Positions 16,383 to 20,833 of a stretch of 64,000 nucleotides of DNA are shown here, piece after piece (positions within the stretch are counted from its first letter, which is position 1; each line of letters opens with the position of its first letter). This DNA comes from Bradyrhizobium stylosanthis (GTDB lineage: Bacteria; Pseudomonadota; Alphaproteobacteria; Rhizobiales; Xanthobacteraceae). The position numbers and the translations under genes were made by a program. The stretch spans positions 723,663 through 787,662 of the forward strand of contig NZ_LVEM01000002.1 in NCBI RefSeq assembly GCF_001641335.1, written 5' to 3'. The notes beneath the pieces are model-generated. The model ran no database searches, was not told where the DNA came from, and saw only the letters and a program-made list of their open reading frames with translations.

Positions 16383-16737
16383 GGGATCGGCGTGATCTCG
16401 GCGGGCAATAGACTTAACGCAACGTAATTCCTCTACCGAGCGTAGCGAAGAGGCGGGAAAATTCCCTTAAGCGCGTTAGTTTACGGAGGGTGACTTGCGA
16501 TGGAGAGAGATCGCTTCGCGCGCGCGAGTGCTGCGCGGCCTGCAAGCCAGAGTTGGCTGAAGTGCGCAACAAGTTCGGTGTCGTCCCGGCGAAGGCCGGG
16601 ACCCATAACCACAGGGAGAGGTCTGGCGAAGACTGTTGGTGAAGAGGCTCTCCGTCGGTACCAACACCTGTACCGAAGGATGGATCACGCGGTATGGGTC
16701 CCGGCCTTCGCCGGGACGACGGAGACAATGGGATAAC
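16383..16737. other. Intergenic region with family A repeat
   Basis: No convincing gene. The right half is the family A repeat at 16580-16720. The left part is AT-rich for this genome around ACTTAACGCAACGTAATTCC and may carry the promoter of the PAS-GGDEF-EAL gene. Confidence 0.5.
16580..16720. repeat. Dispersed palindromic repeat, family A (copy 2)
   Basis: Ends GTCGTCCCGGCGAAGGCCGG and CCGGCCTTCGCCGGGACGAC are near-perfect inverses, with the variable centre seen in other copies. Confidence 0.9.
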
Positions 16738-17613
16738 CTACGGCCCGTACAGCACCAGCTCCGTGTCGGTGAGATCGCCGAGTTGCGGCCGGTGCGGGCC
16801 TTTGAAATATTTGCGGCCGCGCCGCTCCGTATAAATACCGGCGAGGCCGGGAATTGGGCCGTTGGCGTCGACGGCCACCGCGATCTTGCCGAGCCGCAGC
16901 AGCAGCCGGCCGATGCGGCCGGCGCACTCGGCGTATTCGGCGGCGCTGCGGCAGTAGATCAGCTTCATCGCGGGCGGCGCGATGAAGCCGCGGCGGATGC
17001 GCACCGGTTGCAGGATGAAGGGGAACGTTCCCTTCGGCGTGCGGCAGACGACGCTGAGGCAGTTGTAGCGCGCATGCCGCGTCAGGATCTCGGTCTCGTC
17101 CGGAGAGAGCCCGTCGATCGTCTTGGCGTGCTGGGAGATCACCTCGATCTTGCTCCAGCGCGGGGCGCGCGCCAGCGCAGGCACCGAGAAGAAGATGCCG
17201 CGGCAGTAATTGCGGAAACCCTGGGCCTCGATGATCGGCCAGGTCCACGGCGCCGGGCTGATGTTGAGATAGGTGACGTCCTTGTGCCGCTGCGCGACCT
17301 TGGTCAGGAACGGCGCGTAGTTGCGGTAGGCCGGGTCGACATACCAGCTCGACAGATTGCACTGGATGGCGGTCTCTTCGCCGTGCTTCCGCGTCGTGTA
17401 GATCAGCAGCAGCACGCCGACGGGCTCGCCGTCATTGTCGAGCATGTAGCCGAAGCGCGGATAACCCTCCGGCACAGGCCGGAAGGCCTGCCGGCGCAGG
17501 CCCTGCATCCAGTATTCGCGTGAGCGGCCGACGAAGCCGCGCGTCAGCAAGTCCGCGATCTTCTCGACGTCGGACTCGGTGATCTCGCGGCAACGGACCT
17601 TGGTATGGATCAC
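16738..17613 (-). CDS. GNAT-like acyltransferase linked to the aminoacyl carrier protein locus
   Basis: Protein of 291 residues from a GTG at 17613. It opens IHTKVRCREITESDVEKIAD, a typical GNAT first strand and helix, followed by FGYMLDNDGEPVGVLLLIY and CNLSSWYVDPAYRNYAPFL, which corresponds to the GNAT acyl-CoA-binding region. The family assignment is by fold pattern only. It could transfer an acyl group to, or an aminoacyl group from, the neighbouring carrier protein; that is inference from position. The frame stays open upstream to an ATG at 17739 overlapping the ligase stop by 20 bp, so translational coupling from that longer start is possible, but the extra residues do not look like a domain. 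Confidence 0.72.
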   Translation of the reverse strand: MIHTKVRCREITESDVEKIADLLTRGFVGRSREYWMQGLRRQAFRPVPEGYPRFGYMLDNDGEPVGVLLLIYTTRKHGEETAIQCNLSSWYVDPAYRNYAPFLTKVAQRHKDVTYLNISPAPWTWPIIEAQGFRNYCRGIFFSVPALARAPRWSKIEVISQHAKTIDGLSPDETEILTRHARYNCLSVVCRTPKGTFPFILQPVRIRRGFIAPPAMKLIYCRSAAEYAECAGRIGRLLLRLGKIAVAVDANGPIPGLAGIYTERRGRKYFKGPHRPQLGDLTDTELVLYGP

Positions 17614-17719
17614 GCTCGTCTTGCCCGTGGAAATGGTCGGCCTCGTCTGATCTAACGTTTCAGCATTATGTTTCCGGAAGACCGCTTCGCGCGTTTCGCT
17701 ATGCGGTCCGCCGAATGCG

Positions 17720-18700
17720 CTAGCGCCAGCCTTCGCCATGGGCGTCGGCCGCGACCTGCGGCTGCAGGCCCAGCATGTCCCGCACCTTGGCGGGCCAGGC
17801 GGAGAGGTCGGTGCCGTGGGTGTGGAACATGGCGACGGCCAGGCGGTCCATGCCGAAGGCGACGCAGCCGGTGTGAGCCGGCTCGCCATTGGCGTCCTGG
17901 ATGCCCCAGGTCGTGCCGAAATGCTCGCGATGATAGTTGAAGCTCATGCAGGCGGTCGGCTGCTCTTCCGAGCGCAGCGGGATCAGGAGCTCGAACTTGA
18001 GCTGCTGCTGTTTCTGGCTCACCGCCTTCATCTGGCCGACGCGGCCGAAGAAGGGATCGCTGGCATAGTCGACGCGGAAGGTCAGGCCGAGGTCGGTCGC
18101 GATTTTCTGCGCACGCACCATCCAGCGCTCGCGGAAATCGGCGACGTCATCGGGCGTGCCGATGCAGACATATTCGCGCATCCGGAACGATTGCAGCCGG
18201 TCGAGATGCTTGGACGGCTCGCGGCGGAAGCAGTCGGCCGCGACGTCGAAGCGCAGGCCGCCCTTCGGCAGCTGGCCGCGGCTCGCCGCGATGGGGTAGA
18301 CCGGATAGCAGGCGGCGGGCGACAGCACGAGGTCGGCCGGCGACAGCGACGTGGTCCAGTCGCCGCCGGCATCGAAGCGGCTCACGGCGGCGTTGATCTC
18401 GCGCTCGGTGCCGTGCAGGCCGCAGACGCAGCCGAGCAGGTTCGGAAAGCTCTTGAGATAGCCGGACTTCTCCAGCTGCGCGCGGCTCATCACCGGCGGA
18501 AAGCGCAGCGCCTCGGTGCCGGCTTCGCGATGGCTGGTGATCAGCGCGGCTAGCTTCTCGACGATGCCTTCATAGAGCGCGGTGCGGGCGTAGACGCCAT
18601 CCGAGCCCATGCGGTGGAACAGCTTGTCGGCGAGATGATCGAGCGGATCAACGATCTGCGGCGCGGTCGTCGGCGAGTCGGGAAGGACGGCAATATTCAT
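17720..18700 (-). CDS. Amino acid:[acyl-carrier-protein] ligase (SerRS-like)
   Basis: Protein of 326 residues, a truncated class II aminoacyl-tRNA synthetase homologue related to atypical archaeal seryl-tRNA synthetases but without a tRNA-binding arm. In Bradyrhizobium japonicum this family activates glycine or alanine with ATP and loads it on the phosphopantetheine of a dedicated carrier protein, not on tRNA. The expected zinc ligands are present: Cys131 (PAACYP), Glu176 (FRMREY) and Cys279 (HTGCVAFGMDR). The last of these runs into class II motif 3, and motif 2 is CFRREPS...RMREY. The ATG at 18700 (MNIAVLPDS) is chosen over 18748. It lies 40 bp after the acyl-CoA dehydrogenase homologue and is followed by the GNAT gene, so the three form an operon. 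Confidence 0.95.
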   Translation of the reverse strand: MNIAVLPDSPTTAPQIVDPLDHLADKLFHRMGSDGVYARTALYEGIVEKLAALITSHREAGTEALRFPPVMSRAQLEKSGYLKSFPNLLGCVCGLHGTEREINAAVSRFDAGGDWTTSLSPADLVLSPAACYPVYPIAASRGQLPKGGLRFDVAADCFRREPSKHLDRLQSFRMREYVCIGTPDDVADFRERWMVRAQKIATDLGLTFRVDYASDPFFGRVGQMKAVSQKQQQLKFELLIPLRSEEQPTACMSFNYHREHFGTTWGIQDANGEPAHTGCVAFGMDRLAVAMFHTHGTDLSAWPAKVRDMLGLQPQVAADAHGEGWR

Positions 18701-18740
18701 GGGATGATGTCCTGCTATCTGAAAATCTGTTCTTGTTGTT

Positions 18741-19958
18741 TTAGTCACGAAGGCTCGACGGCACGCCGCTCATCAGCGTCGAGGTCGCGGCGTTGGCCAG
18801 AATGCGGTCATTGTTGATCATGATCGGCGACGACAGCACGTCGCGCAGGTGACGGCCCATCGTGAACTCGCCGTCATTGCGGTAGCCGGACAGGCCGGCG
18901 GTGCGCATCGCATGCATCACGGTCTCGACCGCGAGCTCGGAGGCCTGCACCTTCAGAAGGGTGATCGAGGACTGGAAGTCGAGCGAACTCAGCGCGCGCT
19001 CGTCATGCTCGGCGCGGGAGAAGGCGTCGATATTGGCCGATATCAGCGCACGCAGCTTGGCGAGCGACATCTTGGCGGCGGTGAAATGCGCGGCGGCCGG
19101 GGGCATCTGCCCGCCCGAAGTGCGGGCCGCCTTGCGGATGAAAGCCTGCGCGCGCGTGACCGCGGCGGCAGCGATGCCGGCCCAGGCCGACGACCAGCAC
19201 AGATGCGCGAACGGCGTCATGGTCTGCGCGTGGATCTTGTCGTAGGCCTCCGGGAAGACGCGGTCGGCGGGGCAGTCGACCTTCAGCTCGAAGCCGGTCG
19301 AGCAGGTGCCGCGCATGCCCAAGGTTTCCCAGCCCTGCGTCTGCTTCAGCGAATAGTCGTCCTTGGCGAGTGCCAGCAGCACCTGGTCGGAAGCCGCGGC
19401 GCTGGTGGCACGGCGGGCGATGGTGACGAGGCCGTCGGCCTGGGCACCGTAGGAGATCACGGTGGCGTCGCGCACCAGCGAGACGGTGTCGCCGGCATGG
19501 TCGACCGCGGCCGCGCTGGCGCGGATGTTGCCGCCGTTCTGGCCTTCGGTGGTGGAGGAGGCGAGCAGCCACTGGTCGCGCGCGACCCGGCGCATCATCG
19601 TTTCCATCCAGGGAATGCCGTGGCCGTGCCTGACGACGCAAGCGACCTTGGTCGTGTGCATCGCGTAGATCATCGCCGTGGAAGCGCAGGCGCGTCCGAG
19701 CGTGTAGCAGATGTCGGTGACGTCGTGGATCGAGGCGCCGAAGCCGCCGAACTCGACGGGGATCATCACGCCGAGCAGCTTCTGCTCGCGTGCGATGTCG
19801 AAGGCTTTATGCGGGAAGCGGGCGTCGCGATCGACGCCGTCTGCGTCGGCTGCGGCCGCGGCGGCGGTCCGGGCGGCGCGCTCGATCAGGGAAGGACCCT
19901 GCTCGAGAAAACTCGTCTGCGTTTCGTCGACAGTGAGGACCGCTTCACGCACGTTCAT
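18741..19958 (-). CDS. Acyl-CoA dehydrogenase homologue of the aminoacyl carrier protein locus
   Basis: Protein of 405 residues with the acyl-CoA dehydrogenase fold: N-terminal helical domain (EQKLLGVMIPVEFGGFGASI), central barrel (WETLGMRGTCSTGFEL) and C-terminal four-helix domain (MRTAGLSGYRNDGEFTMGRH). Where ordinary enzymes carry the catalytic base as YEGT.EI, this protein has HLRDVLSSPIMINNDRI at 370-386 with Asn382-Asn383-Asp384 and no glutamate. It probably binds FAD but may catalyse a different reaction, for example hydroxylation or oxidation of a carrier-bound aminoacyl thioester; this is inference. First gene of the operon with the ligase and GNAT protein, and divergent from the carrier protein at 20310. 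Confidence 0.85.
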   Translation of the reverse strand: MNVREAVLTVDETQTSFLEQGPSLIERAARTAAAAAADADGVDRDARFPHKAFDIAREQKLLGVMIPVEFGGFGASIHDVTDICYTLGRACASTAMIYAMHTTKVACVVRHGHGIPWMETMMRRVARDQWLLASSTTEGQNGGNIRASAAAVDHAGDTVSLVRDATVISYGAQADGLVTIARRATSAAASDQVLLALAKDDYSLKQTQGWETLGMRGTCSTGFELKVDCPADRVFPEAYDKIHAQTMTPFAHLCWSSAWAGIAAAAVTRAQAFIRKAARTSGGQMPPAAAHFTAAKMSLAKLRALISANIDAFSRAEHDERALSSLDFQSSITLLKVQASELAVETVMHAMRTAGLSGYRNDGEFTMGRHLRDVLSSPIMINNDRILANAATSTLMSGVPSSLRD

Positions 19959-20309
19959 ACTCGTCCGCCTCCGGTTCGCCGTTCAGGACCGCCGGCATCA
20001 TTCGCGATGCGCGCAAGCGATCTCCGGCCATCTTTGCTTGTGAGACGAGGCTACGGATTTAATTCAAATTCGTCGATCAAATAGAGGGTAAACGAAGTCC
20101 AATTCCAAATGGACAGTTAAAGCCCGGTTTTTCGCACCGCAGGATTTTCCGCGATCGCGTTAGGGATCTGGAAGAAGCCGGAATTCCAGACAATCTGAGT
20201 CATCGTTTACTAAGAAACGCGAGTTAATGGTGACGCCCATTGCGGGATCGGCCGTCCCTGCCCATCGTAACCGGCAGTTCGGTCCGACCAAACAAATGGG
20301 AATTTACCG
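19959..20309. promoter_or_regulatory. Divergent promoter region of the aminoacyl carrier protein locus
   Basis: A 351-bp gap, unusually AT-rich for the window, between the divergent dehydrogenase and carrier protein genes. It contains no repeat-family element and no ORF of merit. An imperfect palindrome GTCCAATTCCAAATGGAC at 20097-20114 is a candidate operator. Promoters for both directions should lie here. Confidence 0.5.
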
Positions 20310-20582
20310 ATGCAGGCCTTCGATACCGAATTGCGCAATCGCGTCATCAAGCTGGTGAAGGGCATCCTCACGCAGAACTCGCTGCCGGCCGACGTCACCC
20401 CGTCCGCCAAGCTGGTCGACGCGGGCCTGACCTCGATGGACATGGTCAATCTCATGCTCGGCGTCGAAGCCGAGTTCGACTTCACCATCCCGCAGTCCGA
20501 GATCACGCCGGAGAATTTCCAATCCGTCGAGACGCTCGAGCGCATGGTCGCGACGCAGCTGCGGCTGGCGACGGCGGCGTAG
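20310..20582 (+). CDS. Aminoacyl carrier protein (stand-alone ACP)
   Basis: Protein of 90 residues with the carrier protein four-helix pattern and the phosphopantetheine attachment site in DAGLTSMDMVNLML, where Ser42 replaces the usual DSL serine context. The acidic helix II and following FDFTIPQSEITPENF loop are typical of acyl carrier proteins. Its neighbour on the opposite strand is the amino acid:carrier protein ligase operon, and in Bradyrhizobium japonicum the equivalent protein is aminoacylated by that ligase. It is not the fatty acid synthesis ACP, which carries the DSLD motif and sits with fab genes. Translation starts at the ATG preceded by AATGGGAA. Confidence 0.93.
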   Translation: MQAFDTELRNRVIKLVKGILTQNSLPADVTPSAKLVDAGLTSMDMVNLMLGVEAEFDFTIPQSEITPENFQSVETLERMVATQLRLATAA

Positions 20583-20590
20583 TTTCGGCT

Positions 20591-20717
20591 GTCGTCCCGG
20601 CGGAAGCCGGGACCCATACCGCGTGATTTATCGATCGCGGATTGTAGCAGTACTGAACGACCACTCTTCGTCAAACTACGCCCTGTGGTTATGGGGCCCG
20701 GCCTCCGCCGGGACGAC
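20591..20717. repeat. Dispersed palindromic repeat, family A (copy 3)
   Basis: Ends GTCGTCCCGGCGGAAGCCGG and CCGGCCTCCGCCGGGACGAC are inverted. It sits between the carrier protein gene and mtnP. Confidence 0.88.
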
Positions 20718-20833
20718 AACGAGTGGGTGGCAGCGCATCTGCGCACCCCACATCCCTGCACCCCCGTTCCAAATCTGCCCCAAAGCTGGCATAGCTTAAC
20801 CATGTCGCACGTGACGGACAGGGTGGAGCAGGC

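Follow-up and report, generated by a model that had tools for sequence, protein, structure and literature searches.

The biological role of the amino acid:[carrier protein] ligases, which are related to seryl-tRNA synthetase (SerRS), has been open since 2010; a passage of a 2022 review, according to which such enzymes place Gly, Ala or Ser on the phosphopantetheine (Ppant) of a carrier, still calls the role of carrier aminoacylation unknown (PMC9437257). Iyer et al. (2010) linked a SerRS paralogue to an acyl carrier protein (ACP), a redox enzyme, the uncharacterised Atu2574 and a glycosidase, and a note added in proof to that article predicts a modification of the amino acid, with monooxygenation as the probable reaction, followed by its ligation to an amino sugar of the cell surface (PMC2922099). 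Judged by gene order, Atu2574 would correspond to DUF1839, to which an entry of a papain-like classification assigns the papain-like fold and a C(T/S)H triad (PMC10318531). A logic of loading, modification and transfer was thus predicted in 2010 for the DUF1839 branch and is not new. The closest relative of the ligase studied here is Bll0957 of Bradyrhizobium, which reportedly loads glycine or alanine onto its carrier; the published studies are said to cover this loading. Here, we analysed the locus of such a ligase in the window, a stretch of 64,000 nucleotides from Bradyrhizobium stylosanthis (contig NZ_LVEM01000002.1, positions 723,663 to 787,662). The new observation is that the locus, in the ligase clade found in the window, tracks a second carrier/AMP-ligase/SDR module and a MetA-type HTS. 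We consider it probable that the window locus serves as the module for aminoacyl loading in a larger non-ribosomal pathway whose partner modules lie elsewhere in the genome.

The ligase scored 484.6 bits against NCBIfam NF005479 (amino acid--[acyl-carrier-protein] ligase; cut-off 357) over residues 9-312. Its residues 1-326 align full length with the near-identical PDB entry 3mey (Bll0957), and both proteins have the same ATG start codon. Cys131, Glu176 and Cys279, which we take to be the zinc ligands, are invariant across seven aligned ligases, as the initial annotation of this DNA had stated for the window protein. The N-terminal tRNA-binding part of SerRS is missing from the 326-residue protein, of which residues 113-308 match residues 301-507 of a 527-residue type-2 SerRS. 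An ordinary tRNA-charging SerRS was rejected, since the match is limited to the core and the best match is Bll0957. The carrier protein (CP) scored 27.8 bits against Pfam PP-binding (cut-off 20.8), and its best PDB match, over residues 1-90, is titled 'Aminoacyl carrier protein 1'. Its Ser42, read from the sequence, sits in GLTSMDM and shows the GLxS pattern of the PP-binding domain; sequence and profile together bear out the description of a stand-alone carrier.

Ligase partners across loci and genomes

Gene neighbourhoods were compared across 120 loci whose ligase scored 250 bits or more. The sample combined the best 80 of at least 579 relatives in a contig scan with further genome and plasmid stretches and, the best 80 having been taken, leans towards close Bradyrhizobium relatives. 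Names in the gene maps are our own labels, and one member each was checked against Pfam for the AMP-ligase, SDR, two alpha/beta hydrolases, class IV aminotransferase, thiamine pyrophosphate (TPP) enzyme, cupin, SnoaL, HTS, FadD, pyridoxal phosphate (PLP) enzyme, DUF1839, GH2 and second carrier (ACP2). Three plasmid stretches without annotated features were read through query matches alone. The flavoprotein gene lies by the ligase gene in 119 of the 120 loci, many of them near-copies, as the initial annotation had expected of other genomes. The CP gene does so in 112, with three more detected through a carrier profile. Ligase, carrier and flavoprotein are a conserved unit.

Two arrangements were observed around this unit. 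In Rhizobium, Azospirillum, Shinella and Mycetohabitans, the genes for carrier, flavoprotein, ligase, DUF1839 and a GH2 glycosidase, often with an alpha/beta hydrolase, are tightly packed. In Bradyrhizobium, Rhodopseudomonas, Methylobacterium, Bosea and others, the unit is accompanied by a varying mix of GNAT, AMP-ligase, SDR, ACP2, FadD, PLP enzyme, HTS, class IV aminotransferase, TPP enzyme and cupin genes. The DUF1839 group forms one side of a fully supported branch in the ligase tree (100/100, 14 rows), and we refer to it as the sister clade of the window ligase. Locus L144, which automated sorting had put with DUF1839, most likely through a weak GH2 match, does not belong to the DUF1839 clade in this tree. 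The order AMP-ligase-FadD-CP / flavoprotein-ligase-PLP-HTS-GNAT is contiguous in a number of loci, and many loci show only the four window genes out of the seven families sought. The GNAT gene is a neighbour of the ligase in the window, as initially annotated. It is not supported as a general neighbour: the sister clade has DUF1839 beside the ligase, and several genomes carry GNAT with the second carrier/AMP-ligase module instead. Ten distant loci (L168-L177), excluded from the count of 120, come from other Pseudomonadota and encode SerRS-like ligases of about 100-175 bits to NF005479, with no carrier or flavoprotein found by our queries. These ligases are perhaps a separate subfamily.

At the genome level, we surveyed 398 Pseudomonadota genomes, assigning each ligase to a clade by best match to references. 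The ligase exceeded its cut-off in 28 of them. DUF1839 was detected in 15 of the 398, which are exactly the 15 with a DUF1839-clade ligase. The other 13 ligases belong to the window clade, and their genomes contain GNAT in 13 of 13 cases and DUF1839 in none. GNAT scored above 170 bits in 14 of the 398 genomes, all within the 28 that bear the ligase; of the 37 genomes matched by GNAT, 23 gave only weak matches (< 70 bits) and were excluded from this count. The AMP-ligase exceeded 380 bits in the same 14 genomes, with four more at 157-248 bits. Together, the 15 DUF1839 genomes and the 14 GNAT genomes cover all 28, and one genome (G191) has both. Genus g6 holds both ligase clades, each with the matching partner set (G028 and G143 vs G151, G167 and G271).

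The second survey comprised 60 Bradyrhizobium genomes, with thresholds of E <= 0.001 for GNAT, E <= 1e-60 for the flavoprotein and E <= 1e-40 for the AMP-ligase. The ligase was found in 38, the flavoprotein in 38 (a remnant in G398 included, G419 not), GNAT in 40, HTS in 39 and the AMP-ligase in 38. One ligase-bearing genome, G407, has a DUF1839-type set (L210); DUF1839 was seen only there, although it was not searched as a set in these genomes. By best match, 34 of the other 37 ligase-bearing genomes belong to the window clade, and G404, G420 and G437 were unassigned. HTS is present in all 37 of these genomes vs 2 of the remaining 23, and the AMP-ligase is present in 36 of the 37 (in two pieces in G426). 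The miss is G419, in which flavoprotein and AMP-ligase are lost and GNAT is split. A GNAT match occurs in 37 of the 38 ligase-bearing genomes, the exception being G407; the weak match of G403 (115 bits) is present at this threshold and was counted as absent in Fisher's test for GNAT. Among the remaining 23 genomes, HTS or AMP-ligase genes occur only in G398 and G444, both with partial sets. G398 is a ligase-negative genome with a decayed cluster (L211), and in G444 CP, GNAT and HTS form a group that lacks both ligase and flavoprotein (L204), with the AMP-ligase module at another place (L216). Fisher's test of HTS against ligase in the 60 genomes gave 3e-14 with shared ancestry ignored. A check gene, likewise without control for ancestry, was present in 59 of the 60, indicating that the ligase-negative genomes were searchable. 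Conservation of GNAT with the ligase, which the initial annotation had also expected, therefore holds at the genome level in one clade and fails in its sister. In view of both surveys, chance proximity of GNAT was judged unlikely.

The window locus and partner modules in its genome

Open reading frames (ORFs), profiles and structures place at 16738-20582 all four genes initially annotated there (Table 1). Their divergent arrangement was also described correctly, with 351 bp between the three genes of one strand and the CP gene on the other.

Table 1. Coordinates of the locus features in the window.
Feature	Position	Strand	Basis
Carrier protein (CP), stand-alone aminoacyl carrier, 90 aa, Ser42 phosphopantetheine site in TSMDM	20310..20582	+	Pfam PP-binding; PDB match 4h2s_C
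Intergenic region from which the flavoprotein and CP genes diverge; contains long invariant blocks and the inverted pair GTAAACGA / TCGTTTAC	19959..20309		Window aligned with five other Bradyrhizobium loci
Acyl-CoA-dehydrogenase-fold flavoprotein (bll0958 type), 405 aa, with neither of the usual catalytic Glu residues	18741..19958	-	Pfam, alignment, model
Amino acid:[carrier protein] ligase (Bll0957 type), 326 aa	17720..18700	-	NF005479, 3mey alignment, invariant Cys/Glu/Cys
GNAT-fold protein, probably tandem GNAT, 291 aa, GTG start	16738..17613	-	Model, Foldseek and VIA-align

The inverted pair GTAAACGA / TCGTTTAC lies inside the invariant intergenic blocks, at window 20087-20095 and 20203-20211. 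A consensus search of the intergenic region gave no sigma-70-type promoter, and an Rfam search gave no match. The approximate slices examined upstream of the other modules did not contain the pair. A short palindromic repeat, cccggcgaaggccgggac-like by eye, occurs on both flanks of the locus (window 16580-16725 and 20590-20725), and 26 bases of it recur without change at other places in the window genome (L006 and L008). The Pfam scan, which covered the four locus proteins, detected in them no condensation domain of a modular non-ribosomal peptide synthetase.

The window genome contains a second ligase, 75% identical, within a larger cluster (G000:C1:404561-412542; L009 4561-12542). This cluster unites most of the set in one contiguous stretch, with AMP-ligase, FadD-like ligase and CP genes on one strand and flavoprotein, ligase, MetY-type PLP enzyme, MetA-type HTS and GNAT genes on the other; no SDR gene was seen in its gene map. 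Its HTS scored 470 bits against NCBIfam NF003776 (MetA; cut-off 358) and its PLP enzyme 601 bits against NCBIfam OAH_OAS_sulfhy (cut-off 495). The second copy is followed by two genes labelled by eye as sugar-nucleotide-type (L009 13628-15638). For the window copy, the partners lie elsewhere: a PLP-HTS pair near C18:118499 (L215), and a FadD-ACP2-AMP-ligase-SDR module near C12:1229520 (L214), about 0.49 Mb from the window ligase. DUF1839 gave no match in the window genome, and GH2 gave none in the window. In B. diazoefficiens, a table for a phaR mutant at low oxygen lists bll0957 and bll0958, with a fold change of 3.0 each, together with bll1105 (metZ) (PMC10888616). The last may be the MetY-type partner.

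The flavoprotein and the GNAT-fold protein

The flavoprotein scored above the Pfam cut-offs for PF02771 and PF00441 and below that for PF02770. Its predicted model (mean pLDDT 83.9) matched acyl-CoA dehydrogenases (ACADs) and ACAD-fold monooxygenases alike in Foldseek, with DszC and TdsC in the top rows. In VIA-align, human SCAD came first (Z 38.8, 3.0 A, 363 residues), within a narrow spread of Z 36.3 to 38.8 over the 50 rows. Ile381 occupies the Glu376 position and is Ile in 14 of 14 aligned family members; the Glu254 position holds a small residue, followed by His252, which is invariant in the same 14. We take Glu376 and Glu254 to be the names of the usual ACAD catalytic positions. The missing Glu at both speaks against the standard acyl-CoA dehydrogenase mechanism. 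Together with the conserved His, it tips the balance somewhat from ordinary alpha,beta-desaturation towards an oxygenase-like reaction (N- or alpha-hydroxylation). ACAD-fold flavin monooxygenases (DszC/TdsC, KijD3 and the nitrososynthase DnmZ) are among the closest folds, although their identity to the window flavoprotein is about 17-21%. It is rather unlikely that the flavoprotein instead dehydrogenates or oxidises the carrier-tethered aminoacyl group in the manner of AnaB, a prolyl-ACP oxidase (4irn), or ColB1 (7xp7; Z 37.9, 3.0 A, 359 residues), and produces an imino or dehydro-aminoacyl thioester. Both proteins share the fold, are found among the matches and, by their PDB titles, act on carrier-bound aminoacyl groups, but the window family has no Glu at either of the presumed base positions, and glycine, the reported substrate, has no beta carbon for desaturation.

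The label 'GNAT-like' of the initial annotation stands as a fold seen in the predicted model, while the Pfam GNAT match is below the cut-off (E = 0.16), so the assignment rests on the model (mean pLDDT 87.3). Foldseek matched it to the acetyltransferase 3n7z (E 2.8e-08) and to 7q3a, titled tandem repeat GNAT (3.4e-07). The top rows are mostly larger acetyltransferases, 7q3a among them, suggesting that the protein is probably a tandem GNAT. The best VIA-align row has Z 14.2 at 3.1 A over 144 residues, and a PDB sequence search gave no relatives. The acetyl-CoA pyrophosphate loop of GNATs has the motif (R/Q)xxGx(G/A); the window protein reads RNYAPF at this site, and Gly is absent in most of 16 aligned rows. 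Its GTG start was chosen from the alignment; the 383-aa ORF would run into the ligase gene.

A proposed two-carrier pathway and its comparison with known systems

The observations can be arranged into the following scheme. The ligase would form an aminoacyl-adenylate, reportedly of glycine, and pass the aminoacyl group to the carrier thiol, a step said to have been established by others for the near-identical Bll0957. The flavoprotein would then oxidise the carrier-bound group. The compact AMP-ligase would charge ACP2, whose cargo the FabG-like SDR would reduce, and the MetA- and MetY-type enzymes would supply a homoserine-derived unit. Finally, the GNAT may link the carrier-bound aminoacyl unit to the other unit through an amide; in the simplest form, the aminoacyl amine accepts the ACP2-bound acyl group, and alternatively the aminoacyl group is the donor. 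An amide between two carrier-bound units would be the most economical job for the GNAT. In the sister clade, the papain-like DUF1839 would carry out the transfer. The product, the chemistry of the flavoprotein and the role of the GNAT are what we infer from these comparisons. More tentatively than the loading role of the window locus, and with slightly more doubt than belief, we propose a hitherto undescribed, RNA-free, amide-forming pathway with two carriers, composed of a SerRS-derived ligase, an ACAD-fold oxygenase, an AMP-ligase with a second carrier, a MetA-MetY pair and a GNAT, the GNAT being replaced by a papain-like transferase in the sister clade.

Several observations weigh against the scheme. 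Five of the 120 loci have no CP gene by the ligase (L139, L146, L166, L167 and L185), and a common upstream motif of the modules was sought in approximate slices without one being found. GNAT lies beside ACP2-AMP-ligase-SDR and not the ligase in L205, L220, L221, L223 and L225, and has no query-set neighbour at all in L208, L219 and L222. L225 belongs to G191, where this module, with FadD, is on a contig other than that of the ligase, and the ligase is of the DUF1839 clade only. The GNAT/AMP-ligase pair can thus occur where the window ligase clade is absent, and the GNAT may be chiefly a member of the ACP2-AMP-ligase module. The co-occurrence is uncorrected for ancestry, and a single deep split in the ligase tree divides the two partner sets. 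Comparison of folds does not separate dehydrogenase from monooxygenase, as DszC, TdsC, KijD3, DnmZ and true ACADs match alike. A literature search gave no measurement of steps beyond loading.

The scheme has to be set against three other explanations. In the first, a polysaccharide of the cell surface receives the aminoacyl group on one of its amino sugars, the fate that Iyer et al. (2010) predicted in the Agrobacterium branch, with the GNAT doing the job here. This agrees with the DUF1839 and GH2 genes after the sister-clade ligase and with the papain-like fold of DUF1839 (PMC10318531), with O-antigen ligase and GumC genes near the Shinella locus, with genes that we labelled Wzz-like near window-clade loci L140, L142, L147 and L164, and with the two sugar-nucleotide-type genes after the second copy. 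It is improbable nevertheless, as all 13 window-clade genomes of the 398 are without DUF1839, the window gave no GH2 match, and the HTS-MetY-AMP-ligase set seems unlike sugar chemistry. Slightly less probable still, the links of GNAT, HTS and AMP-ligase to the ligase reflect shared ancestry alone and the GNAT serves ACP2-AMP-ligase in an unrelated pathway. The GNAT/AMP-ligase pair of G191, whose only ligase is of the DUF1839 type, and the possibility that ligase-negative Bradyrhizobium form clades favour this explanation, but the genes are contiguous in many loci and scattered in others and still co-occur, incomplete sets occur (G398, G419 and G444), and both clades of genus g6 have their matching partners. 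The self-contained four-gene pathway of the initial annotation, in which the amino acid is loaded, modified on the carrier and handed by the GNAT to a final acceptor, is equally improbable: the four genes form a compact group that is conserved in Bradyrhizobium, and many loci show just these of the seven families sought, but HTS and AMP-ligase track the ligase genome by genome (37 and 36 of 37, vs 2 of 23 other genomes), and a number of loci have both in one stretch with the set.

If the two-carrier proposal is correct, a relative of tRNA synthetases would gain a link to an actual metabolite of bacteria from soil and symbioses, and mining based on gene clusters would miss the pathway, since its modules are scattered over the chromosome in many Bradyrhizobium. 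The comparison provides a testable gene list beyond four genes, including the homoserine arm and a second carrier protein, and the positions of the partner genes in the window's own genome are now given. Genomes with partial or decaying sets, and the sister clade with a different likely transferase, offer natural experiments. The statement that the fate of the aminoacyl thioester is not known holds experimentally as far as we found, although load-modify-transfer had been predicted in 2010 for the DUF1839 branch (PMC2922099). In the open-licence literature searched, the system beyond loading appears in the 2010 note, the papain-like classification and the phaR table only. No description of the wider gene set of the GNAT clade was found there, which carries little weight as most subscription papers lie outside it.

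Among known systems, a near-identical ligase and carrier are those of Bradyrhizobium with PDB entries 3mey (Bll0957) and 4h2s (aminoacyl carrier protein 1); the published work reportedly concerns loading, and the literature searched gave nothing on the flavoprotein, the GNAT or the other modules of this clade apart from the phaR table. The system of Iyer et al. (2010) resembles the present one in its ligase, carrier, redox enzyme and load-modify-transfer logic. It differs in that the window clade is without DUF1839 and has GNAT, ACP2-AMP-ligase-SDR and HTS-MetY, none of which is named in the note added in proof (PMC2922099). DUF1839 and a glycosidase by the ligase, which mark that system, were not found in the window; both are present in the sister clade. 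BtrH, a papain-like acyl carrier protein:aminoglycoside acyltransferase mentioned in the papain-like classification, is a precedent for papain-like transfer from a carrier (PMC10318531). It belongs to another family and does not occur in the window, but by analogy it makes DUF1839 of the sister clade a plausible carrier transferase.

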